A DNA stretch of 64,000 nt from contig OU342636.1 in the NCBI GenBank assembly GCA_910589415.1, positions 37,959,735 to 38,023,734 on the forward strand, read 5' to 3'. The notes beneath the pieces are model-generated. The model saw nothing but the letters and a program-made list of their open reading frames with translations, was not told the origin of the DNA and did no database searches. The stretch comes from Malachius bipustulatus. Lineage: Eukaryota; Arthropoda; Insecta; Coleoptera; Melyridae. The translations under genes and the position numbers were made by a program. This document shows positions 7,901 through 64,000 of the stretch, piece by piece (position 1 is the stretch's first letter; every line of letters begins with the position of its first letter).

Positions 7901-9114
7901 AGATGTTTTAGCATGAACAAGACTGAACAGACTATAGTCATGTAAAAGCCAGCTAAGCTTTTTGCATACTATAATAGTAAAAAACAAATAATACGAATAT
8001 GATAATATAAATAAATATAGAAAAGCATGCATGACAAATATAATGAAATGGAATAAACAAACTTAATCCATTAAAAAAAATTAAAACAAATAAAATAATC
8101 TCGTATTTTTCAAAATTTATCATTATGACTTATTTTGGGTAGGGTAGGTACTAAAAGATTGATGTTTTGTACTTAAGCTCACCCTTATTGTCTGATTTAA
8201 ATCGCCCATACTGCCTTGAACACCATAGTTGTACGTGGGAAGCTGTTGAATAGAAAGAACAAAAATAAAACTTCATGAAAAAAAAATAAAAAAAAACAAA
8301 ATTCCAATTCCCGCAGAGCCTGCTGGCTTTTACTCAGCCCATATAGTTCAACAAAAAACCACTTACTACTCTTTCTATGTTATTTTTTACAGCTACAAAA
8401 TTAATAATTAACACTACGACTATTGAGAATTAATAAAAGAAGCAACACTAACTACTACTAACCGTCCAAGACTATTCAATAATAATTACATAATAACGAT
8501 GAATAAACTTACCACGGATATCCCCTCCTGGTTCGGATTATAGGCTACTGTAAGAACTGTTGGCCCTCCTGCCATATTGAAAGACTGGAGAGGAATCTGT
8601 AACAAGAACAAGCAATCATTATTCCATCGCACTACTAAATTCTCAAAGGTGGAAGAAGTCGTGTTTCATCCATAATGTAATAATAATAATAAAGAGTGTT
8701 GGTGCAAGCGTGGTGCCCTGAGGAACACCACCTTTTTCGCCCCCTGACTTTTTCCACAGGAAAATGTTTCGCCCTAAAATGACAAAATTGGGTATGATCA
8801 AAATAAAGACTCACCTGAATCTGCACGGTTTGAGCCGGTTCGCCAGGCTTCCCGGGCACCGTGATCGGCAGGCTTATCATGGTGGTCTGGTCCTGCCCGC
8901 CGCCCACCTGCAGTTGATGCTGTCCGGTGGCTTGCTGAAGCTGACTGCCGTCCAAGGGGCGGATATAGTGGATGCCGTTCTCGCCACCCTGCAGCACGCC
9001 GAGCACTTGCCCACCGGCTGTCGCCACTTGTTGGGTCAGCTTGCCGCCGGTGAAGCCGGTGGCCACGGGCAGAGCCGTGGACAGAGGTACACCCAGAGAA
9101 AAAGGAAAGTTCAT
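4968..9114 (-). CDS. C2H2 zinc-finger transcription factor (four fingers, Gln-rich regions)
   Basis: Six exons read on the minus strand: 8815-9114, 8513-8596, 8183-8242, 7545-7787, 5170-5901 and 4968-5114. All junctions are GT/AG and phase 0, giving 521 aa. The N-terminal half is rich in Gln, Gly, Thr and Pro (transactivation-like). The fifth exon holds an acidic and Lys/Pro-rich linker, then four C2H2 fingers: CPEC..HLVGH, CDIC..HKLGH, CSVC..HFVIH and CTEC..HARSH. Fingers 2-4 share an RKEHL/RKDHL recognition helix. A polyQ run follows, then a short Q/V-rich C-terminus ending VVTILPD. The expected location is the nucleus, as a DNA-binding protein. The start at 9114 is the first ATG after an in-frame stop, but an upstream exon may extend it (see 22891-22945). 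The exact orthologue is not recognised. Confidence 0.88.
5935..7445. repeat. Intronic array of GAATGTTCTAGAA-type repeats (HSE-like)
   Basis: About 1.5 kb of the zinc-finger intron is built from variants of GAATGTTCTAGAA / GAATGTTCCAGAA. Perfect matches to the trimeric heat-shock element pattern nGAAnnTTCnnGAAn occur, for example, at 6002-6014 and 6032-6044, and near 6146, 6286, 6407, 6518, 6660, 6833, 6947 and 7010. A longer unit marked by ATGGTTGAAAATGCTCTAGAAGG recurs at about 6050, 6360, 6613, 7037 and 7280, so the array has higher-order structure. A related array lies at 63003-63580. Confidence 0.8.
8675..8765 (-). mobile_element. Fragment of a non-LTR retrotransposon reverse transcriptase
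   Basis: Translation of the minus strand gives KSGGEKGGVPQGTTLAPTLF, which fits the conserved RT block G-V-P-Q-G-x-x-L-x-P-x-L-F of non-LTR elements. Only about 25-30 codons are recognisable. It lies in the intron 50 bp downstream of the 8815-9114 zinc-finger exon. It is a dead remnant. Confidence 0.6.
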
Positions 9115-9131
9115 CTTCTCGATCGTTGCTT

Positions 9132-9612
9132 CTTATAGCTGCTGAAAGATATTTATGATATTAGAGCTTTTTTTTCAATTGGCAGTAATTTTAGATTAAT
9201 GTATAAACTGTCAAAGTGACAATTAAGTTACCTAACCTCAATTTGGATTACTAAACAAGCTGTCGATCTCTAGTGATAGTTTTGTCAAATCAAACAAGGT
9301 TGTCTCAAACATAAACATACCTACTCCTGTGCATTATTTCCATCAAATATTTTTAGGTAAAAATTGTGGTACTTACAATATTTATGACATTCATCACTGC
9401 CACTGGCTTCAGTCAAAGGACTAGAAAGAGAGAGATGAAAAATGGAAATCAAGCCCAAAGGAATATTATTCAAGGAAACTTTTTGGGATGTTCTAGGTGT
9501 CAAACAATGCCAATTTCCAACCATAGAGTAAGAACAACCGCCATTGTTTCAAAAGTGCCAAGGATAGGGGATTCAAAATGGCGGTCTTCATCGCGTTTAC
9601 CAACACATCCTT
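9132..9612. other. Intronic or upstream AT-rich sequence
   Basis: It holds the candidate 3' splice site of the zinc-finger gene (AG at about 9132-9133 or 9142-9143 on the minus strand). Nothing else is recognised; short open frames overlap on both strands without domain content. Confidence 0.4.
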
Positions 9613-42000: not shown

Positions 42001-42218
42001 TTTTTTTTACAATTATTCTACAGTGAAAACAAAAGGGGATTAAATTAATGCGAGCACAAAATGAGCATAGTAGTGAAACATATTTGGCATTTCAAACGAC
42101 TGTTCTCGAGAAATTGACAAAAAACTGGAAAAAAATTCAACTTGATCATCATCTTGAAAATGGTAGGTACCTCTGGGCATGTAAGTTTATAGGAAAAAGT
42201 CTATTTTTTTCTATAGGT
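39042..42218. mobile_element. 3.2 kb fold-back element with internal satellite and central hairpin
   Basis: The outer ends pair (CTATATAGAAAATAAGAC and TTTTTTCCTATAAACTTA left, complements at 42180-42216). Further inside, sequence at 40500-40680 pairs with 41465-41620 (TGGAGCAATGTAACTAGTCC against its complement). The centre (40845-41310) holds three alternating copies of a GTGTTCAGCTACAAAAAGTC...GCGAAAACGGCCGAGC unit. The left half carries the 210 bp satellite at 39285-40440; one matching unit lies inverted at 41825-42005. No protein is encoded. Confidence 0.8.
39285..40440. repeat. 210 bp satellite, about six units
   Basis: CTTCTACGCCAC followed by GGGATAAATGCGATTTTAAG recurs at about 39291, 39499, 39709, 39919, 40129 and 40339, i.e. 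at a constant ~210 bp spacing. Related single units occur in the fold-back at 19667-21275. The repeated ~90 codon minus-strand open frames are artefacts of the unit. Confidence 0.88.
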
Positions 42219-43494: not shown

Positions 43495-46400
43495 CTAAAA
43501 AGGTCTGTTCACTGCAGGTACGTAAAGCCTGGAGACACGTCTCGGCTGATCATCCCAAGGACTCTTAGATTCGAATTCCTCGTGAGACCAAACAGGAGGT
43601 CTCGATGCGTTACTCTCACCAGACCAAAACTGTGATGGTCCGGCGCCAGCGCCAAGCGGTCTCGCCTTACCGCCCCTCTTTCTGTTGGAGTTCCGCTTCC
43701 AAGCCCTCTCATCGGCCGACGGTCTTTGATTTCTGAACGTGGCCGGACCGTCGTACGATCTCGACGCCGATCCGCCGGCAAATTGAAGATCCATCAGAGA
43801 CGGCGGCCGTCGATCGTCTACGGGCGATTGACGCCGATTTATCGGCGAACGCCTCCTGACCGGAGACTGGTCCTCCCTTTCGAACCACGTTTCTCTTCGA
43901 CCCGGCGGCGATAGGCGTCTCTTCGCCGGGGGACCCCTCATCTCGTAACCGTAATCGCGTCTGGCAGGCGGAACCGTTTGCATGTTTGGATGCGGTGGTC
44001 TGGGTCCCGGTCCCGGCCTGTACTTCTTCACATTTCTCGTAAATGTCGGCGCCGCTCCCTCGAAAGGTCGCTTTTTGCCTTTCGCTTCTTTATTTTTCTC
44101 CGTGTCGTTCTTACCCAGCGCTTGACGGACGGCTTCGGTGATCTTAGCCTGAAGTGTCTCGTCACTGAAACCCTCCTTCTTCAAACTCTCGGTTATTATT
44201 TCCGTCAAGTTCACCTCCATCTTGGGATCGGCCGGTTTCTTCTCCTCTTCTTTGGGTTTGGGGTTCCCGGCCAGGTCGGTTTCGCAAACGGGACCGATCA
44301 CCTTGCCCGCTTCGACCATGATTTGATACACGGATTCGAGACGAGCTTCCGGTAAAGTGAAGGTTTTGCAAATCTTGAGGATCTTGACACGCGTCTGCGG
44401 CATATTGTAGGTCAGCTGCTTCAACAGCCAATTGGGGAGAATAGAAACGGGCGGTTTCTTTTTCTTTTTCGCCAAATTGTTACGCCACTCCTCGAGCTTT
44501 GTCAGAGCGTACACCTGATTCGGACCGAGACTCCGCACCAACTCGGGTTGGAAAAGTTTATCGAGAGCGTTTTCCTGGTCGTAATGTGTGGTACACTGGA
44601 GGGAACACTCGACGAGAAAATCTTTTATTAAATTTTTCTCGATGAGGGCGTTTTTGAGGTTTACGTAAATGGAGGGCAGGTAATGAACCTCTTGGACTGC
44701 CAACACCTTCAGATTGTCGGGCAAGGGTCGCGTTTGCCATTTGGGGGGCTGCCTGAATTTCATCGGCTTAACGCTGTATCGTTCCTCGAGGAAAGCTCGG
44801 AACGATTTGAATTTCATGTCGAGCTTAACGAAAGCCTTTTTCACATCGAATATGTTGACAAAGTAGAGGCCGTAGTTGAGTTGCAGGTATTTCAAGATTG
44901 GATACGCGTTTGGGAATATTTTCACTATGTTCGGATTGGTGAAAATATCGTTCAGAACGTGCAGACTCTCGTGCAGTTTGAAAGCGTCGATGAAATAATT
45001 GAACCGCAACGTCGATATCAGGATGTAGCTGAGTCGGTTTTGGTAACCGATGGTGTGCTTTATGGCTACGCCCAAGTAATTGGTCGGGCTCGCGAGCATC
45101 TGCTCGACGGCTTCGATCAGCATGACCTTAGTTTCGACGAAAGTAAGGCCAAACTTGTTCATGGGTTTTCGTTTGAACGATTGGAGAGGTTGACAGTGCT
45201 CGTCCGTTATAACGAAATTATCGATTATTTCCTGGTAGGGATGGGTCGGCTTTGGCTTCGCCGTCGTGTTACACTCGTCCTTATCCTTACCTTCGATTTC
45301 GGCGTCTGGGTCGCTTTTCAATTTAGCGCCGACAGTCTCCGGGTCATTGGGCTCCTCTCCATCATTAGCTGTGTCTACTTCTTCCGTATCTAGAGAAAAA
45401 TATAAGCAAAAATTCAGGTGTGGGGGTCATCTCATTTCTTGAAATAATCTCTTTTTAGTTAAGATCCGTTCATCAAGATACTGACATCATTGCAGTTTGG
45501 ATTGTACTTATTCTCAATATTGCAAGGGATTACAAGCACATATTTACTGTAATTTTATCAAAAGTGGGCTGATAAAATAAAAAAATTATAGTTGACAATT
45601 ATTATTGACAGCTCAATAATCAAGTTTTGGGCCATTCTAATTAATTTTGACAATCACATGCGCCCTCTAAAACTTTGATATGCAGTTTAACCTGTACTCA
45701 AATGATTACCAAAAGTACCAAAAAAATTTTTTACTACAAACTTATTAGTCCAAGAGCTAGCGACAAATAAGTGCAAGAGTTTTGGAAAGGCTGATACTTT
45801 CCAATCAGACTGTATTTTGCCCATAGAAAGCCACCACTGTACAGCTGGTATGTCAGGTGTTAAGGCAGGGGACGAATTCAAAGTTTTAGAAAAAAAAATA
45901 TCTGAAAAATCCGATTATTGCATTGACAGTTTTTGTCATTAAACAATAAACTTGAAGGAATTTTCCAGATTTTTTTTAACTTTAAAAGCGTGCCCCTGCT
46001 TTATGTCCTTTTTTTGTTGCTAGCTTCCAGACTATATAAATCTGACATTAACAATTACTGTCACTATTTGTGCATAAAAACCACATAAACTACCCCATCA
46101 GCAGTAAATGTAACTCATTTTTCCTACCTTCCAAGTCTGCATTACCATCCTCTGCTTCATCATTCTCATTTTCGTCTCCATCTAACAAAAAAAATCATCC
46201 CTTAAAAACCAGACAGCCAAACATTAATTTGGTAATGTTGCACCTTCATGACGATAATTCCCCTCCGCTAATCATGTTATTGGTCAGGTTTTTCTTCATC
46301 TTCTCCCTTCTTTGGAGAAAAAACCCCTGACCAAACGACCCGACTTAGCGAAGGTGAATTATCCTCGCGAAGGCGCACCATAATCCTAATTCCTAATTCA

Positions 46401-46542
46401 ATAACTTACCTTCAGCTTTATCATCAACTACTTCTTCTTCTTCTTTCTTACAATCAACCGACGACTCTGAAGTCGTGGCAGCGGTATCGGTACCATTTTT
46501 TTGTTCCGGAACAGTTTCTGACTTGACCTTGTCGGATTCCAT
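43495..46542 (-). CDS. Gene A: catalytically dead Rrp6/EXOSC10-like protein (exonuclease-like + HRDC)
   Basis: Exons 46410-46542, 46128-46181 and 43495-45389 on the minus strand, both introns phase 1, give 693 aa. After an acidic N-terminus comes HPYQ (an Rrp6 feature), a DEDDy-like exonuclease domain at about 113-315 with W-x-x-RPLP as in Rrp6, and an HRDC domain at about 350-430 (LGPNQVYALTKLEEWR). A basic Arg/Pro/Ser-rich tail follows. Active Rrp6 uses D-x-E, D, and Y-x3-D; here these read A171-I-K173, Ile in FPNAYPIL, and L-x3-E, so nuclease activity should be absent. Probably nuclear and RNA-binding. The upstream exon stays open before this ATG, so the N-terminus may be longer (see 46812-46841). 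It faces gene B head to head. Confidence 0.88.
45745..46040. mobile_element. Inverted-repeat element in gene A intron
   Basis: TTAGTCCAAGAGCTAGCGAC at 45747-45766 pairs imperfectly with GTTGCTAGCTTCCAGACTATA near 46016-46036. The same motif occurs at 27497-27520. Weak but repeated. Confidence 0.4.
46240..46378. mobile_element. MITE-like inverted repeat in gene A intron
   Basis: TGCACCTTCATGACGATAAT and CCGCTAA...TGGTCAGG on the left pair with complements CCTGACC...TTAGCG and ATTATCCTCGCGAAGGCGCA on the right. ~140 bp, within the intron between 46182 and 46409. Confidence 0.55.
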
Positions 46543-46811
46543 TATAATATCTGGTTCTGTGTAAAAAGAAAATCGGATTTAATTCTCATTAATGAAGGTG
46601 CGACTTGTACAGTAGTGGTAGTGGTACTGGGACAGGGTTGAATCAGCGATAAGGGGCGAGTTGGGAGGGGGAAAGGGTAATATTGTCTGATGGAAATTCG
46701 ATTCCTGTACTTAGATTTGGACCCCTAAACAGAAGGATTGCCAACTGATTGACAAATTGAGAATATTGAGATATTTTCGAGGGTACGTAAAGTAATAATA
46801 ATTCATCTCAC

Positions 46812-46841
46812 CCGCTTTCTGCTTACTGGCGTTCTTGATCT
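46812..46841 (-). other. Possible 30-nt micro-exon upstream of gene A
   Basis: The minus strand has TTCTAG|AG...GCGG|GTGAGA: a 30 nt open segment (IKNASKQKA) with splice sites, phase 1 on both sides like the two confirmed introns, and it reads into the open sequence EPDII before the ATG at 46542. No initiating exon further upstream was found, so it is tentative. Confidence 0.3.
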
Positions 46842-47242
46842 CTAGAAGAGGTTATTATCCCCTTCACACTGTTTTTCCTCCCACCCTAGCAATTTTCACA
46901 CCGGTGTTAGTTTTGGCCTTGTAATTAATATTGTCAATATTACTATTATTATAACTTTATAACAGGAATAAAACACAGCACAGGAAACAGGGAATTGAAT
47001 TAAATTAAATTATTAAGAAGTTAAGAAGTAGCAAGTTAAGTTAGCAGCAAATGGCAATAGAAAAGCAAAAAGCAATTAGCAAAATAGCTAAATAGCAATT
47101 GAGTGAAGTAATTGACATTGACGTTTATGACTTTTGAACTACGACCGTAAAAATGCCACTATTTGGAAAAATATACTAAAATAAACTCAGACTCTTTACT
47201 ATTGCGCATGATTGTTTTGATGACCAATTAATTTAACCTTAC

Positions 47243-47638
47243 GGATGTTCTGTTTTCTAAGTACGCGTATGTAGGGTACCTGTATTACCGACACTAACGT
47301 TAGTAAGCGTTAGTATTGGTAATGCAGGTTCCCTATAAAAACATTTATCTATTACGTTTTTCTGAGGTACATAAAATTCGTAATTTTGTTATTTTTATAC
47401 TTTTTTGGTTTAATAGAGGTCAGAGATGCACTAACGTCACCGGTTGCTTCTTTTTTGTACAAAGTAGACATAATACAGCAATTTTCACCCAGGTAAATAA
47501 TCAAACAAATTTCACAGAAGACCAATTAACTTTTATAGCGCCGACTGCCGGTACCGGTGGTTCTCGGTTGATTGGTTCCTCTCCCATGGTTCCTTGTGAA
47601 AATAATTATTGCAACCAAGTGGTTCACGAGCGGCTTGC
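47243..47638 (+). repeat. Dispersed ~0.4 kb repeat with palindromic head, copy 2
   Basis: Same element as 9613-10035, in the same orientation, differing by scattered substitutions and small indels. The near-palindrome lies at about 47273-47335. Confidence 0.75.
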
Positions 47639-47996
47639 AGATGTATACGCAACTTTGATTCAAAGTTGCGTAATAGAAATTACAACGTAACAAAATGAGA
47701 ATAATTATTGTAACAAAAGATGTGAAGATTATGAGAGTTAATATGAGAGGGTTAGTTTCACTCTAAACCTACCTAATAAAATAAGATTGAAAGCATTTTT
47801 TATTTTAATAATTACTCAGGGAGGGTCTAACAATTTGTTTATTATTATTTTCTTTTTTTTTTAATTTCTTATAATTATTGTTGTGTTTGATTACATTATT
47901 ATGATCCTGTAACCTGTAACTGACAGTTAATAGTAATGACAGTTTCAGCAACACAGCTAGTTTTTGCCAGAGAGTCAAATAATATAGACGCTATTA

Positions 47997-48545
47997 GTGT
48001 GACGTCACTGGGCGGGGCTGAGAGAATATGGTTCCAAATGAACAAACCGTTGACATTGCCATATTGTTGTCAGATGTCGTGATTTAGTTGAAGTTTGAAA
48101 CTCACGTCGTGAATGTGGTCTGGAATTTTGACTTATTCAGGTAACCGCCACGCCACGTGGCTTTTAGTTGGGTAATTTATATTTTAGGTTTTCGTCGAGC
48201 TCAAAAGCCATCTGTCAGTAGTTTTATTTTTTTATAAAATACTGATTTTATTGTAATCTACGACACAATTTCTCAACAATTTTTTCTTATTTACAGTTTT
48301 CACTGTAAATTATTATGAAAAACCTGCTTAAAATTTTTTCTATGTAATAGAAACAACGCTATAGCTTATTCAGACTCCTAGCATAAAAATAAACTCTGTT
48401 CGTATGTTCTAGTACGATTTAGATTTATAACTTTGATGTTTCACTTGATACAAAGTTTACAGCGAAAGTCGCAAACTTGCAACTGTCAAATGCTTGTTTA
48501 TTTGGAAGTATTTCCGTTAGCCCCGCTGACTGACGTCATCACTGA
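47997..48545. mobile_element. MITE-like element with TGACGTCA ends, copy 2
   Basis: The ends are GTGACGTCACTGGGCGGGGCT and AGCCCCGCTGACTGACGTCA. Compared with 28778-28985 it holds ~340 bp extra in the middle (a later insertion or the fuller form). Confidence 0.6.
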
Positions 48546-48982
48546 CTGTACAAAATATTATCGTGTGATCCACAAAATTTTTCATCAACTAGTGCCTTGG
48601 AAGAGAGAGATGGCTATTACAGTCATTGGATATTACACATCTGTCATATTTAATTTCAATTCCTGTCAGTTTCATTAAAATATTAAAGATATTGCGAAAA
48701 ACAATAGTTTTTGACTATAATTTTGAACCTGATGAAATTACTGGTATAATATTATTAAATACTTACTTTAATTGGCACTTTTTTATGAATCATGCCAGTT
48801 TTAATCACCATTCTTCATAAATTCTGTTATTGTTTGTGATTTGGAAATGAAATTATAAAATGGTAAATGATAATTGAATCATTCAAAAACTCAAACTCGA
48901 ACGGAAACATTAAATTGAAATGTTATTTTATCCTCAATCAGAAAGACAGAATATTCTGAGTTTCTGAGATCACAACGACTTA

Positions 48983-49125
48983 GGGTACCTGTATTATCAA
49001 CACTAAGGCTAGTAAGCGCCAGTGTCGGTAATACAGGTACGGTAATACAGTCTTTTTTTACCTGTATTACCGACACTGGCGCCTACTAGCCCTAGTGTCG
49101 GTGATACAGGTACCCTACAACGATT
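48983..49125. repeat. Double palindrome of the GTACCTGTATTACCGACACT family
   Basis: Two hairpin units in tandem. GGTACCTGTATTATCAACACT...AGTGTCGGTAATACAGGTAC is followed by TACCTGTATTACCGACACTGG...AGTGTCGGTGATACAGGTACC. The same palindrome heads the elements at 9613 and 47243. Confidence 0.75.
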
Positions 49126-49499
49126 CACATTGTTCATCCTCCTTGAAATACAACCAATGCCAAATTGAAATTAGTAATAAACTCAGTACCACACGTACTC
49201 GATCAGCAGACGTTCGTTACTGTTCCAGGTTAGTTTCTTTACTCTAACAAAGTTTATTATGCAAGTAGTCATGTTTTTATTTATTTGTTCTATGATTTGT
49301 AGATCATTGATTGGAGTAGTTCACTTACACACCTACCAATTGTTTGTGTTTTATCTGGCAGACATGATTCATTTTATTCAAGACAATAGTTGATGAAAAA
49401 TTTTGTGGATCACACGATATTTTTTAAACAATTTACTGTATTTGATGAAGCTGATATAGTCAGCGAAACAGCTGTTAAACTTAACAATTAAATACCTAA

Positions 49500-49718
49500 C
49501 GGCCAATATTATAAACGCTGGTTAAGTTAACTGGCAGATTTCTGCGGTCGTTTCTGGAGAAGATATAGACTATAGGTCGAAATTATTACAATTTAATTAC
49601 TCTTGGCATAAAAGGGATTACAAAAATTTCAATAAAATTTATTCGAGGTCAATATTAGCTTCAAAATCGGGCACAGAAATCTGCCAGTTAACTTAACCAG
49701 CGTTTATAATATTGGCCG
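49500..49718. mobile_element. MITE with 3-bp TAA target duplication (PIF/Harbinger-like)
   Basis: Inverted ends of ~45 bp: CGGCCAATATTATAAACGCT... continuing into GGTTAAGTTAACTGGCAGAT, mirrored at the right. TAA flanks both ends (49497-49499 and 49719-49721). A 3-bp TWA duplication with GGCC-type ends is typical of PIF/Harbinger-derived MITEs. 219 bp, non-coding. Confidence 0.75.
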
Positions 49719-50464
49719 TAAGTGTAAATTAATTAAGAAACAACTTTGTTTTTATTTTTTTTCTATTATTAAAATGCATTTACCTACACTAAGTATCGGC
49801 CTCAAAAAAGTAAAGTAAACACACACTACACCAGCGGTCAAAACAGTCAACTGTGAGTCAAGGCAACTCAGGCGCTGGTGGCTTTGAGCGCAGCCATATG
49901 CCGTATATTCCATGCGCACGTGTCATGACATTTAGTCTGTGATTCTGTTCTGCTGGTGTCCGGTGTTTTGCTTTGTTTGGCTTTTGGCTTTGTTCTTTAT
50001 CTTTTTGTACTTCTGTCTGTCTGTTGTCCTCTCCTGTTCCTGTTCTGTAGTTTAATAAATGGCGAAAGCGGATGAGAAAATCGAATTTTGTTAATTTTAA
50101 TAAACAAATTCTTCAGTTTTTCACCAATATCAATCTATTCCATATTAAACATACTTGCTAGTAGAGCTAGAAAGTGTTAGAAGAAACATAATACATCTTC
50201 AGTTGTATTATTATATTTACATTTCAATAATAATTGAATTAAAATGGTGAAGCTACTGGGAAAGACTCCAATTCCAGGGCTCCAGTAAGAGGTACATGTG
50301 AGCAACATAACAACCAGATCAGTAGTAAATTCGGTAAAATAGATACACCGGTACCGAGCATGTGATTTTTGCCAGTTTTATGCGGACCCGGAGAGTGTAA
50401 GAAGTTGATTTGATTTGATAGACAAATTCAGTTCAGTTATAGTTATAATCAAACAAAGACCAAA

Positions 50465-53400
50465 ATGCCCAGGTTCAAGAAAGCCGGACTACCCGGCCGT
50501 TCAGAGGACTCTCAAGGATGTAATAAGACACCGGGTAAGTTGTATTTCTGGTTACCTACTTTTTAGGTATTTTGTTTCTTGTAGCCTGTTGCTATGTTTG
50601 TTGGATCTTTAGATTTTCAATGCCAGGGTAAAATTTGAGGTTATATTTCGCTCGTTTTGAATTTCCACACGTCAGGGTGTAAAAGGTGTTGCGTTGCACA
50701 CTCTTAAATCAATGTAACTCACCCATTGACGGGTCTACCTGTTCAATTTCAGCTATAAAAACAGGATACGTACACTTTGAATACAATAATAACATCGCAA
50801 CTCGAAACGCCATTGTCTTCTTGATATCAAAACGGGGCAAGGTGCGCTTTAGCGACTAGAATTCCCCCCCTCCATAGAAGTCCCCCCTACTAAGTCATGT
50901 CATTGGTCAGGGTAGGTTTTTTTCATTTGCCCCTTGAAATTTCAAGAAAATTAAAATATAAAACAAAGAAGATAGTAAGGGCGGTAAATTACAAGGAAAA
51001 AACACCTAACCTGACTTAGTGGAGCGGGGGCTGCTAGAGGGGGAAGATCCATTGAATCCATTGAACCTTGATGTGAGCCAAACATTTGAAGGCAGGCAGA
51101 GACTGTTGTTAGATGGATTAAAGTAGAAATAATGCTTTTGTAAGAGGGTTGAGAAACCCTTTTTTATGGTTACTTTCGTGCTTTTTATGGGTGATATCAT
51201 GTATTAATGTGGTCTTATTATTTCTTTCTATAATGTTACCATTACCCCCTTTTTTTAGTCTACTTTATGTATCATATTGTGACCCTCGTGGATATATGAA
51301 AGTCTGGAAATGGGCGCCAATAAGAGTTGTCTGTCGCTTGTTTAACATGTGGTTGCAATTCCCATTTCCCAAGGCTTGATCGCAGTGTTGCCAGATTGAT
51401 TTTTATTCATCAAAACCCTGGGATGCAAGTTTTTAAGAAGAACTTCAAATTGGGGTCGATGTAGGTATTTGTGTTCTTTTTGTGGCTCCCCAGTTAACTG
51501 ACGTGAGGATTTGGTGGGATCTTGGTGATGCTGTTTAGTAGTTGTTGGAACTGAGACTTGAATACGCTCATTACACGTTTTTGAGTTTCAAAATTCTTAT
51601 AGAGGAAAGAAAGGTGTGACGATTTTTAGTTTTCACAGATTTCCAGTTTTTCCTGATAGTTTGAGAGCCGCCGATTTTTTTTACAATCTTCTATCGACAT
51701 GCAATTAGGGAACTTTTGAAGTTTGAACGTTTGATGCCCTATTGCACATATTACCGTTTCCGAGACAACAAAATAGAGAAAGATACATGGTCCACCCTGT
51801 ATGCTTCTTATTTAATCTCTCAATTCACTACAATTCTTTCGATCCCATTCCTTTTTTTGCATCTAAAATCCTTTTGTTACAATGAGCGTCAAATGCTATA
51901 AAACTAAACCTTTGAAAAAGATTTGAAAGTTGTCACTTATCAAGTAGTGTTGTTAGTGTTATTGGATTTACAAACGTGTGAGTGAAAAATACAAAAATTC
52001 AATAACACGCAGTTACGATCGAGCTACACAACAACTCACAAGTCGCAAAAAGTGTTGCATAAAAACATGAAAAATGTAAACTGTTACGGTGTGCGCAAGC
52101 GAAGCTTGAGGTTGAGGTGGTGATGTGAATCGATTCCCGTATAAATTTGTAACTGTAATAATTTATTTGCAGTTACCCGGCCCGACCCAAAAAATGGAAA
52201 CCCCGTCGAGCTTGTCAGGCTCGACGCTAAGAAAAGAGCCGTCGTCAGCTACATCAAAAACTTCGCAGCCGCCGAAGAACCCCTGAAAGGTCTCTCGGAG
52301 TCGGAGGAAACCGCCGACGAAACTCGAACCCACGAAATAACCAACGTCTCTCTCCTGAGAGAAATGCTCGACGTGTTCAAAAAGGAGAAAGTTAAAGAGC
52401 TCGGTGTCGTCGTCAAGTGCGCCAAAGAACCCGGATCAAACATAAGTCTAATGCTTTTAAAGACGATCGCCGCCACCTACATAATCGACGTTTTCAAATT
52501 GAAAGACCTCTCCTACTTGAACGAGGTCCTGCTCGATCAAAACATAGTCAAAGTGATGTACAACACCAATTACACCTTGAAACTGTTGGAAAAGTATTTC
52601 GGCTGTTACGTTGTGAACACTTTCGATCTCGAGATGGCGGCCGAATGGTTAAAAAAGAAACCGTCGCTGGAATCCATAGTTAAGGATTTAATAAAAGACC
52701 TGACGGTGCCCGCTAGAGTGGACAAGGACTGGGACATCCGTCCCTTGCCTCAGATAAATAAAGAACGAGCGATTTTCGAAATTAAATACCTCTTACTGCT
52801 ACATCACCATCTGCACGGCCTGTTACAGAGTTCCGGTCAGCTCGGTCGTTTCCTGAACGAGTGCAACCAATTCGCCGCAAAGGTTTATAAGATTCTCGAC
52901 TACATAAAACTCGAGTCCGATCCGGCGAAAGAGAGCAACAAGAGTGAAGCAGTTGCAAGTCCGGATGCGAAACGGTTGAAGTTCAGTCCGCCGTCCGCTA
53001 TCGAATCCGAGCCCCCTTTAGAATTCGTACCGCCGGATCAAAGCGGATCCGACGAAAAGAAGGATTCGTTACTTTTCGAACCTCCGGATAAAGTCGCCTT
53101 TTTCGAGCCCCCCGATTCTGAAGCCGACAAGTTCCGGATCGATTACTTCGAAATCGATACCCGGGAGAATCTCTTGAGGATGCTGGATGGTTTTAAGCGG
53201 GGTGCGACCGAGCTGGCTTTCAACCTGAAGTGTTCCGAAGACTCTAAAGTGGCGCTTCTGCTGTTTTCGTCCAGCGGCGATAATTTCATAGTGGACGCTC
53301 TGAAACTCGGGGATTCTTTGGTCGAGCTGAAGGGAATCTTCCTTGATCCCGGCGTCACTAAAATCACCTACAACGCCGACTCGGTGCTGAAATCGTTGCA

Positions 53401-55585
53401 GAACCAGTTCGGTTTGAGGATCGCCGGTCTCTTCGATATTGACGTAGCCGCCCGATTGTTGGGGTACGGGAATACTTCGTGGTGTATGCTGCTTTTGAAG
53501 AGCTTTCCGCATTTGAAATTACCGAGAAATGTCGAGTACGGTTGGGAGAGACGTCCCTTGGAAGAGGACAATAAGATATGTGCCGCTTTCGAAATCAGTT
53601 ATTACCCCATTTTGTATAAGTTATTGAACAGCGAATTGTTGGAGAGTAATAAACTGTTTGATTTGATGCAGGAATGTTATAAAAAGTGCGATGTTTCGTA
53701 TTTGAATGATGAAGATGACAGAGTAAAAGGTCATAGCAATCGAACAAGTAAGTATCCTGAAAAATCGTTGAAATTTGAACCGAATTCGGGAAGTAATTCA
53801 ACAAAAATTACCGCCGATGATGCTAAAACGAGTAGGGAAATATTTCCTAAAGAAGATCGAAAACCCGAGACCGGTAGCGATGTATCTAACCCGATGGAGG
53901 TGTTGAAATTATTAAAAAACGCGACCGAGTTCTTGAATAAAAACTCGGCGGGTAGCGCTGTTTCTAGCGAGTTTAGTTTGGGACCCGGTTCGTTTAATAT
54001 CGTGGATTTTGTGAAAACGCTTCAGACGGCCGTCACTTCCATCAAAAGTAAAACTACTCCTAAAGAATCGCCCGACAATTGCAGGGCTGCCGAAAATGTT
54101 TCATATGATCAAGACGAACGACTGAACATTGAACCGTTTTCTAATCGTAATCGTTCAGAAACCGCAGCTCCGAGCAAGCCTAATTATGAAAGTAACTTTT
54201 ACCAAACGGACGTTCAGTCTAAGATTTCAGAGTCTCAATCTTCGAGGCATTTTGGAGGCTACAAGGAGCCAAGCAATTTTGACTCGTATTCTAAAAACCA
54301 GAGTGCTTTAAATGTGAAAGGAAAAATCGTTCCCTCCGAGTCTAATTTTATGGTAGGGCCGCTACCGGTGCCGCCTCCTTCAAGTAATAATCGAGGCGTT
54401 TACGACTCTTATAAAAACGTTCGAAACATACCCGAAACGATCGTTTCGCCTACTAGTCTGATGAAGACCGGGCCTGCCTCCAATAAGGACAACAAACGTT
54501 ATAAACACGATCCTTATGATGGAGGGTCGAGTGATTTCGACTCTTACTCGGACAAATTCGCCCCATCTGCTAATCGTTCGGAAGATAGAAGAGATAATTA
54601 TTATTCTTCCAATTATCAAAACCGCTTTGATTCTTACCGAAATGCTCAAAAAACATCAATAGCCTTGCCACAACAAACGTTTAAAAAATCAACAAATCAA
54701 AGCGAGTTCGCTTTGGCATCCGGTTCATCGAACATCGCTGATTTTATGAAAACACCTTCTAATCCTTCGAGTAATTACGTAAATAATTCCACCTACACTA
54801 ACACTAACGCTACTAAAGACAGATTTCGAGAGTCACCATCAAATTTCGATTATTACCAAAACGTTAATAAAAACGTGCAGAGCGTAGCACCGTTTAATTC
54901 TTCTGGCGTCAAAGAATTTAATTATTCTTCAAATTATTACGGAAATACACCGGCATCTTACAAAGAGCCCGGTAATTTAGGCTCTTACAAAAACTTACAT
55001 CAAAAATTCGTATCTCAATCATCCAATCTTCCAGATGTCAGAGAAGATACTTTTTCTTCCGGTTACGGGAAAAATTTGACCTCTAATAAGGAATCATCTA
55101 ATTTTGATTCTTATAATTCAAAGAATAAGGTGCCGAATTTTAATCCTTCAGTGGCACCTCCGGGAGGGTTCGCTCAACCGACCAATCCCAGTTGGAGCGA
55201 TTATAACGTTTCTCAGCCCAGAACAGATTTCAAAAATTCGGGTAGAAATTACGGAAATGCGAATTTCGACTACAAAAATGCGGATTCGGCGAATTTTCCA
55301 CATCCCAACCCGGGTGGATTTTCGAGAAGCTTTCCCGATGCCACCGCCGACGTCAGATCGTTTAATTCCGACAGGCAAAGGGATTTTCACGGCAATTACC
55401 AGAACAATCAAAGATCGAATCAGCTCGATCGTCGATTCGATTCGGAACTTGAGCCCATGCGAAGTATGAGCTCGTCACTTACGCAGGCTCAAAATTGGTT
55501 CCGGGGAGAAACGGAACAGAGGAATCAGACACAAGGGAAGAGAGGTTGCCCGTTTCCGTATCAGGAAGGGAATTTTAAGAAATAG
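50465..55585 (+). CDS. Gene B: double dead Rrp6-like exonuclease domains with long Asn/Ser/Tyr-rich tail
   Basis: Exons 50465-50534 and 52173-55585 (intron GTAAGT...TTGCAG, phase 1) give 1160 aa beginning MPRFKKAGLPG. Exonuclease-like domain 1 is at about 85-270 and domain 2 at about 350-530; each keeps the Rrp6-type pattern (Y-x-x-x-x-L-K-x-L, F-D, R-x-RPL) but not the catalytic acids. The D-x-E motif reads V-V-K in domain 1 and N-L-K (374-376) in domain 2. The second motif aspartate is Thr or Val, and motif III has Glu for Asp and no Tyr. No HRDC is seen. Residues ~535-1160 are low-complexity, rich in Asn, Ser, Tyr, Phe and Lys, with repeated (N/D)FDSY and YKEP motifs: prion-like and probably disordered. 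AATAAA at 56061-56066. Confidence 0.9.
50864..51045. mobile_element. Inverted-repeat (MITE-like) element in gene B intron
   Basis: CCCCCTCCATAGAAGTCCCC and CTAAGTCA...GGTCAGGGTAGG on the left pair with CACCTAACCTGACTTAG and GGGGGCTGCTAGAGGGGG on the right. It resembles the MITE at 46240-46378 in its GGTCAGG and CTTAG parts. Confidence 0.5.
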
Positions 55586-56080
55586 TTTTTTTTTTTAGAT
55601 TTTTGACTGGTTGGTTATTAGTTCTGTTATTTGAATACACGTAAAGTTCTGAATATGTATAGGGTGAACAATTGCTAAAAATGAAGCACAAATAACCACA
55701 CATTCCTGCTTGTAAAACAATTTTTAGTGGTCACTTTTGATCGAAGTTGACCAATTTAATTTATGAATCTGATGAAATTGAAATAGTAACCCTTTTTTTT
55801 TATTGTTTTCGATAGTAAAATGTACTTGTACCTATATTTTTATAGTCTGATAATGACTTTAATAATTAATGTATGTATATTCATTACTTACTGTATTTAG
55901 AAAATGTTGTAAATTGTTTTTATACAGGGTGATTTATTATATATTATGTGTACAGTGTGGTGTGGCCTTTTTTCTTGAGTCACCCTGTAAATTTTTTATT
56001 TAATGTTCGATTTTAACCGGATTTTTTTCAATGGTGCAGACTAATGCACTGTGTTTGTTGAATAAAGTAAAAAGCATTTC
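55586..56080. other. 3' region of gene B
   Basis: Contains a TACAGGGTGATTTATTATAT...GTCACCCTGTA pair (55925-55988), a small inverted-repeat remnant, and AATAAAG at 56061. No other gene. Confidence 0.5.
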
Positions 56081-57300
56081 ATTCCTGCAAAATCCAAGGT
56101 CTAAATTTTATAGCCGAATTAAAATTGCAAGATTTGAAAATTCAAATTAGCAAAAACCTAGGCACGCCACTGGATTCACAGTCCCTCAAAACGCCACCGT
56201 ACTAAATTTTATCGAAACTTGTCGAGTATTAACGATTTTATAGCCATTTTAAAATTTCAATGTATTAGGGATTTTTTTGAGGAAAAATCTGGGCACGCCA
56301 CTGGATTCATCATCTCTCAAAACGTCATTATGCTAAATTTTATCCAAATCTGTCAAGTAGTGTCGATTTTATCCAAATTTGACAAATTTAAATTGTTGCA
56401 ATTATTTTGAGAAAGTTTAAATTTAAAAAATTCATTATTAGGGATTTTTTGAGGAACAATCTGGGCACGCCACTAGATTTACCGTCCCTCAAAACGTCAC
56501 TATACTAAATTTGATCAAAAGCTTTTGAGTATTGGCGATTTTATATAAATTTTAAAAATTATTTGAGGAAAATTAATATTTAAAAAAATTTTATTAGTGA
56601 TTTTTTTAATGGAAAATCTGGGCACGCCACTGGATTTACCGTCTCTAAAAACGTCACTATGCCAAATTTGATGGAAAACCTGTTGAGTATTATTGACGAT
56701 TTTATATAAATTTGAAAAATTTATTTGAAGAAAATTTAAATTTAAAAAATTCATTATTAGTGATTTTTTTAATGGAAAATCTGGACACGCCACTGGATTT
56801 GCCGTCTCTAAAAACGTCACTATACCAAATTTAATGGAGAACCTGGTGAGTATTGATTTTATATAAATTTGAGAAAAATTAAAATAAAAAAAATTCTTAT
56901 GGATTTTGAGGGAAAATCTGGGCACGCCACTGGATTTATCGTCTCTTAAAACGTCACTGTACCAAATTTAACGGAAAACCTATTGAGTATTGATTTTATA
57001 TAAATTTGAAAAATTTATTTGAGGATAATTTAAATTTAAAAATTCATTAGTAGGGATTTTTTGAGGGAAAATCTGGGCGCGTCACTGGATTAATCATCTC
57101 TCTAAAGGTTTTATACTTCACGGGCTTCGATAAAATTTCCTAAAGTACGGTTTTGAGAGATTGTGAGAGTGAATTCAGTGGCGTGTCAAGATTTCTCATC
57201 AAAAAATCATTAACAGTCAACAGATTTTGATAAATTTTGTATAGTACCTTTTTTGAGAGATTGTGGATCCAGTGGCATGCCATGATTTTCTCTTAAAAAA
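56081..57300. repeat. ~150-170 bp tandem array ending in inverted units
   Basis: CTGGGCACGCCACTGGATTT recurs at about 56157 (variant), 56289, 56460, 56617, 56783 (variant), 56915 and 57074 (variant), with AAAACGTCACTATACCAAAT and TTTATATAAATTTGAAAA between. At about 57170 and 57255 it appears inverted (CAGTGGCGTGTCAAGATTTC, CAGTGGCATGCCATGATTTT), so this array also ends in a fold-back. Confidence 0.8.
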
Positions 57301-59554
57301 TCGCTAAATTAATTCTTGAAATTTTACTACTCAACACGTAGGCCTGGGATGTTGTAGGAACGAGACGCTTTTTGATGTGTGTTTTTTTTTATTGAAAGCT
57401 ATTTTGAGCGAAAAGTTCATCAAGCTATCATAAAAAAATCGCACAATAAATAAAGTTTTTACAGGGTGGCTGAAGGCTAGTTACAGGGTGAAATGAGTCA
57501 CACTGTATGTATGCTTGAAGTTATAGAATGTTATTTACTTTCAGTGTTAATTCAGTTAAAAGACAGAGAGTCATCAAGGAATGAATTATTGATTGTGAGT
57601 TCAGTAAAATTAAATGTGTTTTCAAACATGTCCAATTTTTTCATTACCTACTGTAATGATTCATTTAATTAGTAATTATTAGCACTTAACACTGTTAACA
57701 GATACAATTATTAACACTTTAAAGATCAGAATCTGCTCCGCTATAAGTTACTTCTCACTTCAACTTGATTTAGCAGTGACACTAGACACTACCTACTAAA
57801 AGAAGCAAAATATATAAAATTGACATATCCGTAATTTTTTTTTGACATTTTCATTTTTTATATCTTCCTAACTACTATAATACTTCAGTTTAGTATTTAG
57901 GAAGTAATGAAAATCAGACAATGATTGCTTCTTTTAGCGTTGATTAAATGAAAGTGCAGTCTCCAAGAGCATCTGGTGTGTAATTGTTTCTTAATGTTTT
58001 CTATGTTTTCATAAAACACCCTGTATATTTATAAAAATTGTATCAATTAATTATAGTGTTGATAAAAGTTTTAATAACTAAATATGTTTTGTTTCTTTGG
58101 ACCTCGCCTAAGTTTTACTTGTCACAGTAAAAATTACAGAAATTTTTGGAACCCCTGTATCAGATGCACGATGGAGAAAAATTGAAAGTTAAATTAACAG
58201 GGTGGGAAGAACGTTTTGCGAACTAAGCGCTAGTGTAAAAAAAATGCGATTTTGTTATGTATTAGTTAGCCGGTGGCGTAAGTGGGAAAGGAGTCAAAAT
58301 TGCTACTGTTTGAAAATTTTAAGCGCTTTTTTCGATTTCTTGTCAAAAATACAGCTGAATAGTTTCTGGGAAAAGCGTTCCAAGAATTTTCACTAATTCA
58401 CTGGTGAAAGCCCTGGGAAAAAGGACCCCAGAGAGATTGGATAGTCTCGACTTTCCAATACCTCCCTCTCAAAGGTAGTATGAACTTGTATTAATATCGC
58501 ACTCGTGCTTGTAGTTGTATCACTACTTTTGTTGATTTTCCTTGTCACGTAATTAGAAGGGCACGGTGACTCATGTCATGTTTTTCAATTTTGTTCCATT
58601 TCATTTTAACGGCCGTAGCTAACTTTTTATCAACACCTTTGTAGTATTGGTGCTTGGTGCAAGTTGCAGTTCTTTCATTATCTTGTAACGCTTGCGAGAA
58701 TGCAATAAATTTATACATTAAGCCGCATGGATGTTATTGTGCTTTAAAAAGACTTCCCATATTTGTACCTGTACTTCTGCGACTCTGAGGGTAATAACTC
58801 TTCTAAATTTACCCGGACTCGATTAACTTTGTCGTTATGACATTATTACTAAGCTTAAAATCTTCACTCCAATACAGGGTGGATATTTTTTAGGTACGTA
58901 AGCATAACTCTGAAGGTGCTAGAGATGGCTGGTAATGTTAAAAAAAATTGTAGGGTCGGTAGGGGGTCCTTTCAATTCTCTCCATAACGTCGGCTAGTTT
59001 TTCTTCATTTTGCGAGGTCGTCAAGGAGTCTGGCAGTCAATAAAAATCGGATGACGCACACTCGACCCGCTAGCCGCGCGGTCAGAGTGACAAATAGACA
59101 TCATCAGGGTAAAGTGTGAAGTTTTTTTATTTTCAAACAAACTCGCGGCAAGTTTGTCTCGCTCTCACGTCTCTAGAATGATATACGCCATTGAAATAAT
59201 GTAGCTTTTCTCATACTATCGACGAATATCTTAACTCCTATTTATTTGGTTAGTTAGTCCTTTTGCTTGTGCGCGTGTGTTGCTTGTAATTTGTAATAAT
59301 TGTTTTTCTTGTATTCTATTGCCGCTTTTACATACCTTTATTCTTTTTATTTGTAATGCTTCTAATTTATTTGATTGAATTTTTTAAATCTTGTCGACAC
59401 TCGAATTGTGCTTTTTACTTACTACTTGCGATAACTAAATATGGTTTTATGTAATGCATGGAGTTAAATAATGAATAAATTGGCTAAATTACATTACCCA
59501 AAACGTTTTTTGAATCCGAACTAAAAATTTGAGATACATTTTTTATTTTGTTGC
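57301..59554. other. Intergenic region between genes B and C, nothing clear
   Basis: Scattered TACAGGGTGG termini (57460, 58875) and other decayed element ends. A 5' exon for gene C could lie here, but I could not identify one. Confidence 0.4.
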
Positions 59555-60252
59555 TTTGAAGCCTCTGGCTTTGACGCGTTCGCGGTTCGCGCCGCATTTC
59601 TCGCTTTTGTAACTACTATAACGTAAATTAATTAAGATCAATGGCATATTCGCTAGATCTATGCTAAGAACGCGCGTTTTACTTTAGAATATTATTAAAA
59701 TGATGTATTTTAGTAGCACGAGCACGAGCGTATCTCCCTCCCATGCGCAAAGAGTGACCGCTTTTCCGCCACCGGAAAAGCCAAAATCTAGCAGAAACAT
59801 TCAGGAAAAATTACAAAAAATCACGTTTGTCAATTTTGAATGGTGGTTACAGGAAAAATATTAGGGCCACTTCTGATTGTTTTGGGGGAAAAAAAATTAC
59901 TCGCGGAAAAATTCGAAAGAATTCAAGTTTACCAATTATTGCTTTGTTGCCAAATTCACGTTTCTGTTTGGAAAATATGGAAAACCACGAATGGGCCAAA
60001 ATCAAGGAATCGTTAAAACTCAGGTCAGCTCGCCGGAAGTCCGACGGCTTTGAAACGTTTCTTCAATTTCGATGGGAAAAATGGCCCTGGGAACGGAATA
60101 CCTTAAAATTAAAGTTAAACACATGTTTTTAGCATAAATTTAACGAATATATCGTCGATCTTAACTAATTTTGCGTTATATTAGTTATAAGAGCTAGAAA
60201 TGAAGTGCGAACGCGCCAGAGCGCGAGTATTAGAGGCTTCAAAGTATCACCA
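59555..60252. mobile_element. Fold-back element upstream of gene C
   Basis: The left arm (59555-59705) contains TTTGAAGCCTCTGGCTTTGA, TAACGTAAATTAATTAAGATC and ATATTCGCTAGATCTATGCT. The right arm (60105-60252) carries complements of all three in reverse order (for example AGTATTAGAGGCTTCAAAGT). The spacer of ~400 bp has one 101-codon open frame with no recognisable domain. Confidence 0.7.
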
Positions 60253-60341
60253 TCACTGTAATAAACAGTGCAACTTCGAGCGTGGAATCAACCAATCGGG
60301 ATTCTTTTTTTCTAAATACTGAAAATTGAGCCTACTATTTA

Positions 60342-60374
60342 ATCAACAGTTACTATTTAATAGTAACTGTTGAT
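60342..60374. repeat. Perfect 16-bp hairpin
   Basis: ATCAACAGTTACTATT and its exact reverse complement are separated by one base. It lies in the upstream region of gene C. Confidence 0.85.
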
Positions 60375-60816
60375 GAGGGTCTCAGATGCACTGGAAAAGA
60401 GTTATGCGCGGAAATCGGGTGCAAAAAATGCAAGAATGCCGATAACTTTTTACCAGTGCATGGGAGAGTTTTACTTGATATAAACTCAATTGAAGAGTAA
60501 ATCCTGACGATTCCAACGACACCGGAACGATTGCTGTGGGATGATTAGAACGCGAGATATGAGCGGTTGGAAACAAAAAACTTTTTGGGGAAAATTTGGA
60601 CAACGCGTAAATTTAGATAAGAAGACCCTTTCGAATAAACACAAAAGAAAAAATGTATTTTAGATTTTTGGGTCAACTCTTAAATTAAATGTTCTGATCT
60701 ATAATGTCACTGTTTGTATTCGATTTTTTTCCGGTGAAGACATCATATTCTTAAACCAGTTTTGTTTTTCAGGATCTTCAATAAACAAAACTGTGCTATT
60801 TAAAACGAAACCGACA

Positions 60817-63800
60817 ATGCCTAGATGCATAGATAAGGGAAATGAAACCAAGAATGAATTAATAAAAGCCAAACTGCCAGTCCCTGGACCTGTAGATAGA
60901 ACAGCCATAGCCAAGGTAGCCAAGAACCAAACAGAACCGAAAGATGAAGTCGATAATCAGGGAGAAGCTCTGAAATTAATAAACAACACAAGTCAGTTGG
61001 ACGAATTCATCACTGCAGTAGAGGAAATGAAACTGTGTTTGTTCATAAAATACGGTCTGGTGATCGTACCGTTGACTTCTGACGAAGGTGAAAAGATATC
61101 GTACCTTTTAATCTGCACAAAGTATTGTTTCTACGCAATCGATTTCCTGCTGTTCGACCTTAAAACATTGAAGATCCTGAACAAGATTTTTCAAAATGAA
61201 GAAATAACAATTTCGATACGAGACGAAAATACAGCAGCGTTACTGGACAAGTATAACTTATTTCCGACCAGGGTATGTGTCATCAGGAAGTTGGAAAAAC
61301 TAACAGACACTTTTATCACGCCAGTGACTTGTAACATCGATTGGGGCCGAAGGCCGATTTTCATGCACCAATTATCGCGTAACGTACTGGAGATTGTGAG
61401 ACCTGTATTGAATTTTTTGGATTTCGCGAAGGAACTTGTAGCGGATATTAAACCCATCGACTTACCGCTGTTACCTTTCATTGACCACCACGAATATTCT
61501 GTGAAATTATTTCAAGACAGATACTATGTCGAGTGCGTCGAAAGGTATTTTCCTAATATAATGGCTCTAAGTGCCCAACAGCAGAATCTCTTGAATAGAC
61601 TACTGCAGTGGAGATGTCTCCTCTCCACTGTTATCAACAAACCCGAAGCCACAGCGATTCCCATAAAATTTATTCAAGAATTCGTTCTGAATTCATCCAA
61701 GTTGCCCGACGAACTATTTTTATCAAAAGTCCATCAAATCGAATGGATGGATATGTCGGAAGAATCGAAGCTCGCGTTTGGCCCCAATTACAAACCCGGG
61801 ACTATAAAACGGGAACAAAACAAGGTCAAAATTGTAGCCGGCAAGTTTGGGCGAGGACTTATGATTGCTAAGCGAGACGAGCTGGAAGATCTGATTAAGA
61901 TTTTAAAAATTGAAAAAGAGATCGGCGTACACGCAGTTTTTGGTTGTAAATTTTACAGCGTAGTGGAGACGTTATCGTTTCTGGTAATAGCGACCAGAAA
62001 TGAAGTTTATCTAATCGACTTTTACAACTTGAATACTAAAACCTTGCAGATTCTCCAAGAAGTGTTTTTAAGCGATGACATCATCAAAATATTCTACAAC
62101 TCCAGCAAAATCAAACCTCTTCTGGAAGATTACAATTTACACTTTAGGAACATTTTTGATGTAATGGAGAACTCGAAAAACTTATACTACGAAGGTGACA
62201 TGATACAGATCATCGAAGAGAGATTTCCAGGCCGTAACGAGGTCTGCAAGAGCAAGCACGATTGGACCGCGAGACCCCTAAAGGATTACGCCAGAGAGTG
62301 CTTGGTATTCGTAATGAAATACCTCCCGAAATTGTACACGATCTTGAAGACCGAAATGTTTGAGAACGATCTCATCGTTAATTTATTGGACATTCTACCC
62401 GAATGCAGAAGGTTGAAGAGTAAATTTTGCAACGACGGGAAATCGTTACATTTAACACCCGGTCAGCAGTACGCTTTGATCAAACTTGACGAGTGGAGAA
62501 ATTTCATGGCGGAAAGGAAAAAAGTCAAGTGCGAGTTAATTTTACCGGATCACTTACTGGAGCAGGTCATAAAATCCTTGCACACCGTGACTTGGTTTGA
62601 AAGTTTGTCGACCACGGGACATCTCGATTCTTTCCATAAGAGAAACATGAAGAAGGAAGTCGTCCAGATACTGAAAACTGCCAGATCGGTCATCGGTCCG
62701 AAGTTTGAACTAGTCCAAAAGTCAGATCCTCGAACGAATCGTCAATGCCCGGACAAAAGCCCTCAAAAAATCGAAACTATCACTACCAATGCAGGTAATT
62801 AATTATTATTGTTTTCAAACTCTATTTGGAACTAGTTGGCTATGAATTATGAGGATACCTCTATTTGACAGTTGACAAGTGTTAATATTCTAGGTTATGA
62901 GTGTTCTTGATTATCACATGCTCAAAATAAAGCCAAATTATGTACTAAAAAACCAGGTAAATATATCTTGTGACCTGGGGGTCACTTATTTTGACAGAAA
63001 TTTAGTAGTAGAATGTTCTATAATATTCCGTAAGATTGAAAAGGCGCCAGAATGTTCTAGAAAGCTCTAGATTTTAAAGAACGTCCAGAAAGTTTTGCTA
63101 TGTTCTAGAATATTTCAGAGTGTTGTGGAATATTATAAACTGTCTAATAATAAAATAGTAGAATGTTCTAGAAAGCTCTAGATTTTAAAGAATGTTCAAA
63201 AATGATCTTCCAGAAAGTTTTGCTGTGTTCTAGAATATTCCAGAATGTTGTGGAATATTATAAGCTGTCTAATAATGTTCAAAAGGCTCTAGAATATTCG
63301 ATTAGCGAATGTTCTTTTCGATCTTAGAAAATATGGTAGAATACTCGAGAATATTATAACATAGGTATTTAGAGTCTTGGAATATTCCAGATAGTTTCGG
63401 TATGTTCTAGAACGTTCCAAAAAGTTGTGGAATGTTCTAGAATGTACCAAAAAGTTGTGGAATGTTCTAGAAATGATTCTGGAGTGTCTCAGAATGCCGA
63501 AAAATATTCCGGAATGCTCCAGAATGTTCTCGACTGTTCTAAAATGTTCTAGCATGTTCCAGAATGCTCAAAATGCTGTCTAGTAATTAATAAATAACAT
63601 CCCAATTAAGAAATAGCACGTTGCAAAATTTTTGATCCTCATAATTCACCACTTTTTAATTTAATTGAGGTTCATAAATAATATGGTCTGAAGATTTGAA
63701 CATTGTACATGTTCAATACAAGCACAAGCTTAAGGCCCATTTAGTGCAGATAATGTTTTAATACGCTGCAATTTATAATTTGCAGATTCAGGAGAGATGA

Positions 63801-64000
63801 TAATCGAATTTGAAGGAAATCGTCCGAAATATCAGCTTGAACTTGACAAGTTTTTCAGAGAAGTCTACGATGTTCCGTTTTCCAACATACATACTGCTGG
63901 AGAACAGTACACGTTAAAGAAACTCGAGGAGTGGAGAAGGTTTACAGCTACAGCTAAGAACACCCACTACAGCGCTGTTTTAAGTGACGATGATATGAAT
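60817..64000 (+). CDS. Gene C (partial): two dead Rrp6-like exonuclease-HRDC modules plus a further HRDC-like unit
   Basis: Exon 60817-62794 continues, through a phase 1 intron (GTAATT...TTGCAG), into 63786 and off the window end; 731 aa are visible. Order: exonuclease-like domain 1 (~60-240), HRDC-like 1 (~250-325, LSAQQQNLLNRLLQWR), exonuclease-like domain 2 (~353-535), HRDC-like 2 (~546-630, LTPGQQYALIKLDEWR), then HRDC-like 3 in the second exon (GEQYTLKKLEEWR). Catalytic acids are missing: motif I reads F-I-K (76-78) in domain 1 and H-A-V in domain 2, motif II lacks Asp in both, and motif III lacks Tyr and Asp in domain 2. The start chosen is ATG 60817 (MPRCID). The exon is open back to an AG at 60771-60772 (phase 1), so an upstream coding exon is possible. 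Confidence 0.88.
63003..63580. repeat. Second GAATGTTCTAGAA-type (HSE-like) array, in gene C intron
   Basis: Perfect GAATGTTCTAGAA matches include 63050-63062 and copies near 63160, 63430 and 63460. Between them are AGAATATTCCAGA-type variants and a ~110 bp unit (GAAAGCTCTAGATTTTAAAG, repeated at about 63060 and 63172). Same motif family as 5935-7445. Confidence 0.8.

Follow-up and report, generated by a model that had tools for sequence, protein, structure and literature searches.

Organization of the cluster

The window, i.e. the whole stretch of 64,000 nucleotides that was analysed (C7:37959735-38023734), belongs to a genome of which 544 Mb in 52 contigs were searched. It carries three genes, A, B and C, that encode Rrp6-type domains (Table 1). 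The preliminary description had presented them as a three-gene cluster; all three are present, but the cluster is larger than described, extending 36 kb beyond the window, up to window coordinate 100248, and gene C is cut off by the window end. The reading frames of the three genes are long and intact, as had been stated, the chance of such stop-free frames in dinucleotide-matched random DNA being about 1e-10 for A (631 codons), 1e-24 for B (1137 codons) and 1e-17 for C (661 codons). Residues 546-1144 of gene B (about 53800-55582) form a Ser/Asn-rich tail with repeated 'SNFDSY'-like pieces, which may form condensates.

Elsewhere in the window, frames on the minus strand at 4924-9132 resemble, as judged by eye, the exons of a gene that encodes C2H2 zinc fingers and Gln-rich stretches, and related frames with 'MPFFSETV...REYLFGVGTMDGS'-like peptides are found on both strands at 39285-42048, where they probably represent a dispersed or tandem repeat. 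The downstream neighbour of the cluster (L025, window coordinate 131258-131887) is a frame that we take to resemble Vps18, so that the array sits among ordinary genes.

Table 1. Features of the Rrp6-like cluster (window coordinates; E2 to E5 lie beyond the window)
Feature	Position	Strand	Description and evidence
Gene A	46542-43495	minus	3 exons, GT-AG introns, 693 residues
Gene A exon 1	46410..46542	minus	start codon at 46542; acidic N-terminus; GT-AG model, donor/acceptor letters
Gene A exon 2	46128..46181	minus	GT-AG model, donor/acceptor letters
Gene A exon 3	43495..45389	minus	dead exonuclease, HRDC, basic C-terminus; Pfam, yeast Rrp6 match
Gene A dead exonuclease (Pfam stretch)	44644..45054	minus	PF01612 41.5 bits
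Gene A HRDC (Pfam stretch)	44368..44505	minus	PF00570 27.2 bits; hhalign to Rrp6 HRDC P 1.5e-7
Gene B candidate first exon	52067..52088	plus	uncertain: weak donor; phase fits exon 2
Gene B main exon	52173..55585	plus	two dead exonuclease domains, then 599-residue Ser/Asn-rich tail
Gene B dead exonuclease B1	52442..52819	plus	Pfam
Gene B dead exonuclease B2	53153..53677	plus	phmmer to yeast Rrp6 1.9e-13
Gene C exon 1	60817..62794	plus	exonuclease-HRDC-exonuclease-HRDC; 659 codons + 1 base; donor after 62794
Gene C domain C1, the dead exonuclease that has diverged most	60970..61386 (approximate)	plus	BLAST to B1/C2; Foldseek
Gene C HRDC-like unit 1	61567..61785	plus	iterated HMM with this family as training set
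Gene C domain C2, dead exonuclease	61861..62283	plus	Pfam 32.2 bits; yeast Rrp6 5e-11
Gene C HRDC unit 2	62452..62700	plus	iterated family HMM; hhalign to Rrp6 HRDC P 5.8e-7
Terminal exon E1	63786-67231	plus	acceptor before 63786; window ends at 64000
Terminal exon E2	69541-73382		stop codon not counted
Terminal exon E3	74929-78341		stop codon not counted
Terminal exon E4	89172-92564		stop codon not counted
Terminal exon E5	97629-100248		stop codon not counted

Rrp6-type domains and loss of the catalytic residues

Rrp6 is an enzyme that clears nuclear RNA. The assignment of Rrp6-type exonuclease domains to A, B and C holds for five domains, one of which, C1, is weakly detectable. The Pfam cut-off for PF01612 (DNA_pol_A_exo1) was exceeded by A (41.5 bits), B (two stretches, 91 bits over the complete protein) and C (32.2 bits), and the first PDB match of each of the three genes in a sequence search was Rrp6/EXOSC10, gene A matching yeast Rrp6 at 1.3e-28. 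The Rrp6 features reported earlier for gene A were also confirmed, namely THPYQ, WQTRPLP and an HRDC domain over the Pfam cut-off (27.2 bits). An HRDC follows the exonuclease domain in A and after C2, as seen with Pfam and hhalign, although in gene C the Pfam score (13.9 bits) is under the cut-off; in gene B, no HRDC was found with Pfam.

Domain C1 gave no Pfam match. BLAST related it to B1 (2e-6) and C2 (3e-6; both E-values for a six-sequence set), and the best Foldseek match of its predicted model, which is of low confidence (pLDDT 58), was RRP6 (1.6e-5, probability 1.00, TM 0.39); the same list includes the Egalitarian-BicD-RNA structure 9rw0 (3e-4) and Exd1 (5fis, 4e-4; also 5fiq). When C1 was compared directly with four active Rrp6 proteins, neither method gave a significant match (P 0.03 and probability 2% by hhalign; best BLAST match 0.21).

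These four proteins, i.e. the Rrp6 of this genome, human, yeast and the metagenomic Rrp6-like P0001, served as the reference set for the catalytic positions, and all of them have both D-x-E and the catalytic Tyr motif. None of the dead domains keeps the catalytic set, in agreement with the preliminary description: the first-strand D-x-E is found in none of the five, and the Tyr column is changed in all four that could be aligned there. The five catalytic columns read A,K,I,L,E in gene A, N,K,V,C,E in B2 and gap,gap,K,C,V in C2, while the last three are T,R,E in B1, whose first two are unsure (G,V or V,K depending on the alignment); at the first strand the register may be off by one or two columns, and C1, which was not placed by the profile, was aligned only through MAFFT with the whole family. 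Strings of the D-x-E and Y-x3-D type do occur at other places in A, B1, B2 and C2, those of the D-x-E type outside the first-strand window being in A and B1. On sequence grounds, A, B and C are relatives of Rrp6/EXOSC10 without the catalytic residues; the genome has one intact Rrp6, at another locus.

The dead genes share with Rrp6/EXOSC10 the exonuclease-HRDC order (A and C), the W-x-x-RP motif and, in A, the HPYQ lead-in. They differ from it in that catalytic residues are lost or changed, in that domains are duplicated and HRDC-like arrays added, and in that PMC2NT, the domain by which Rrp6 binds its partner, was not found with Pfam in A, in the main exon of B or in C (the upstream exons of B and C being uncertain). 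Gene A, lacking PMC2NT, may therefore not enter the exosome in the manner of Rrp6, which speaks for an action outside the standard Rrp6 position.

Tandem terminal exons with HRDC-like arrays

The largest element of the cluster is an array of five terminal exons in tandem, each with 5-9 HRDC-like units, which begins with the second exon of gene C. Three of them (E1, E2 and E3) have an acceptor in phase with exon 1 of gene C and are open up to a stop codon, giving proteins of 1797-1940 residues, and two (E4 and E5) are frame-broken by early stops. When E1-E3 are considered together with A, B and C, the chance of the open frames ranges from 1e-10 (A) to 1e-41 (E2), again in dinucleotide-matched sequence. 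Pfam scores for HRDC over whole proteins were 33.3 bits for E1, 34.9 for E2, 29.4 for E3 and 35.9 for E5, against a cut-off of 23.8, and the single stretches exceeding the cut-off numbered none in E1, one in E2, none in E3 and two in E5. Comparison of the HRDC-like b units with the Rrp6 HRDC rendered one structural row that matches, whereas at the sequence level there was no match (hhalign P 0.14). In the intron between exon 1 of gene C and E1, dense imperfect repeats of a 'AGAATGTTCTAGAA'-like unit occupy positions 63060-63560.

Motifs of the SUMO type (psiKx[ED]) number 10 in E1 compared to 3.6 in shuffled sequences, 2 of 1000 shuffles being as high. An excess is also seen in E3, E4a, E4b and E5 (1 to 11 of 1000 shuffles as high), these excesses not being independent because the terminal-exon copies are related; in exon 1 of gene C it is marginal (60 of 1000), and E2, A and B showed no excess over shuffles. 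In addition, E1 and E2 contain the motif IIIDLT, and this motif together with the excess of SUMO-type motifs fits a nuclear role.

From the splice phase alone, we infer a putative alternative use of the terminal exons. Such an arrangement would recall lola and mod(mdg4) of Drosophila, in which one common 5' part is combined with several alternative 3' terminal exons; gene C shares with them the common 5' exon and the several terminal exons, but the proteins are unrelated. It is conceivable, though rather doubtful, that gene C combines a dead double-Rrp6 head with a choice among tandem HRDC-array terminal exons, most of them with SUMO-type motifs, i.e. interchangeable nuclear RNA-binding tails that arose from a retrocopied, inactivated Rrp6, and acts as a natural antagonist or re-targeter of nuclear RNA decay. 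Neither dead exonuclease folds nor paralogues of Rrp6 are new as such. In the available parts of the open-licence literature, none of the matches listed described terminal exons with 5-9 HRDC-like units, and none described a once-inactivated, retrocopied Rrp6 family with HRDC-like arrays. If transcripts show exon choice, the terminal-exon array could prove to be categorically new.

Origin of the dead genes

The genome contains one intact Rrp6 (L017) on another contig (C2), with PMC2NT (52.6 bits), exonuclease (165.9 bits) and HRDC (46.1 bits) domains, whose best PDB match is human EXOSC10 (8e-142); loss of the real Rrp6 from the genome is thereby ruled out. A search of the genome with PF01612 yielded 10 matches: two in Rrp6, four in the cluster (A, B1, B2 and C2) and four at other loci, of which L013 presumably resembles Egalitarian, L016 EXD1 and L010 Nibbler/EXD3, the fourth being L014.

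According to the gene model of the intact Rrp6, which is spliced up to exon 6, the exonuclease-HRDC part is interrupted by introns after '...SILK', '...VCLK' and '...ESC', and A, B and C are uninterrupted at these places. The absence of these introns from the dead genes points to a founder that was a retrocopy of Rrp6; this is the simplest reading, other routes of intron loss being possible. The intact Rrp6 of the genome was also the best of the four references by BLAST for A (127 bits), B2 (73) and C2 (82); identity between it and A is only about 30%. B1 was closer to the human protein (61 bits) than to the genome's own (50), and C1 gave no significant BLAST match to any of the four.

In a tree of 10 rows and 290 columns with long branches, comprising the five dead domains, the four active Rrp6 proteins and one RNase D, the dead domains formed one clade (99/99), so that catalysis was probably lost once, in the ancestor of the dead set, which would probably derive from one inactivated founder and not from several independent dead genes. 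The tree does not fix the inner order, six of its seven inner branches being open and the branch of C1 being the longest (6.27), and a topology constraining the dead domains together with the genome's own Rrp6 was not rejected (p 0.50). We infer with good support that a retrocopied Rrp6 lost catalysis once and then duplicated both in place and internally. The products of this duplication would be A, with one exonuclease-HRDC module, B, with two exonuclease domains followed by a Ser/Asn-rich tail, and C, with two such modules plus the HRDC-like arrays.

Relatives outside the genome were few. Among 5.8 billion proteins, a set that appears to be animal-poor and says little on insects, gene A as the query retrieved P0001 only, the profile A1, which includes P0001 itself, retrieved P0001 and P0002 only, and E1 had no match; P0002 resembles the RNase D of bacteria. 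A scan of viral contigs with E1 and C rendered 20 and 9 short-pattern stretches, respectively, none of which was confirmed as a relative, and neither an origin in viruses or bacteria nor a spread through them is supported.

Proposed function

We tentatively favour the explanation that the Rrp6-derived family, probably retrocopied and inactivated once, consists of nuclear pseudoenzymes that bind RNA or compete for the exosome, an explanation that, taken as a whole, is quite possible. Modulation of the exosome and roles in germline or defence, proposed in the preliminary description, are candidate functions. The dead exonuclease-HRDC module would hold RNA 3' ends or the surfaces of Rrp6 partners without cutting, so that transcripts otherwise destroyed by the intact Rrp6 could be protected or redirected. 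The HRDC-like array of gene C would add many weak binding modules, and the tandem terminal exons could provide exchangeable forms of this array.

Some precedent is provided by Drosophila S2 cells, in which overexpressed RRP6-D238A and RRP6-Y361A were dominant negative and increased retrotransposon and repeat transcripts, RRP6-Y361A reduced the H3-HP1a proximity signal, and RRP6 co-precipitated with SU(VAR)3-9 (PMC4577213). In our alignment, gene A lacks both residues mutated in these two proteins. The dominant-negative RRP6 is however an overexpressed one-residue mutant, whereas gene A is a paralogue with about 30% identity. If maintained, a dead family with the fold and the HRDC preserved, beside a working Rrp6, would be a natural test of the non-cutting roles of Rrp6; it might even be the genome's own equivalent of the dominant-negative mutants made in the laboratory. 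A group of Rrp6-like paralogues acting in the silencing of a gene has also been described in plants (RRP6L1 and RRP6L2, PMC4161302), and it is in this description that the likeness lies.

The dead domains could instead carry RNA to other machinery, as an adaptor or scaffold independent of the exosome. The model for this would be Egalitarian, whose exonuclease-like domain is used in RNA transport; both EXD1 and Egalitarian act without cutting RNA. EXD1 and Egalitarian have an exonuclease-like fold, and the presence of 9rw0 and 5fis in the Foldseek list of the low-confidence C1 model, the long Ser/Asn-rich tail of B and the lack of a detected PMC2NT in A, the main exon of B and C are consistent with such a role. 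Yet the closest solved relative by sequence of all three genes is Rrp6, and HRDC, which to our knowledge is present in neither EXD1 nor Egalitarian, is kept in A and C. Other loci of the genome (L016 and L013) presumably resemble EXD1 and Egalitarian. This alternative seems rather unlikely.

Selection on the terminal exons

Pairwise dN/dS values among the terminal-exon copies ranged from 0.54 to 1.0 in 14 comparisons, the bootstrap interval lying below 1 in nine of them and including 1 in five. For the HRDC columns, dN/dS was 1.05 in E1-E3, 0.90 in E2-E3 and 0.43 (0.30-0.63) in E2-E5, and no consistent difference was found between HRDC columns and linkers (12 rows from 6 of the 14 pairs, E4 left out). 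The terminal exons are thus under genuine, though weak, constraint, while copies are born and lost.

Tandem birth and death among five terminal exons, three of them open, together with the high values of some pairs (E1-E3 and E2-E3), is what would be expected if the genes encoded conflict-driven nucleic-acid sensors or restriction factors, in which RNA of foreign or selfish origin is recognised by the dead exonuclease and HRDC modules while the terminal exons diversify in an arms race. On the other hand, no comparison was clearly above 1, neither in the 14 pairs nor in the 12 rows of HRDC columns and linkers, the HRDC columns of E2-E5 are constrained, and no relative of E1 or C, the two that were scanned, was confirmed in viral contigs, so that we regard this possibility as unlikely. 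It is very improbable that the genes are decaying retrocopies without function, a view that could draw on the two frame-broken terminal exons and the five intervals that include 1, since A, B, C and E1-E3 are all open in spite of the low identity of A to the intact Rrp6, and the dN/dS interval is below 1 in nine of the 14 pairs.
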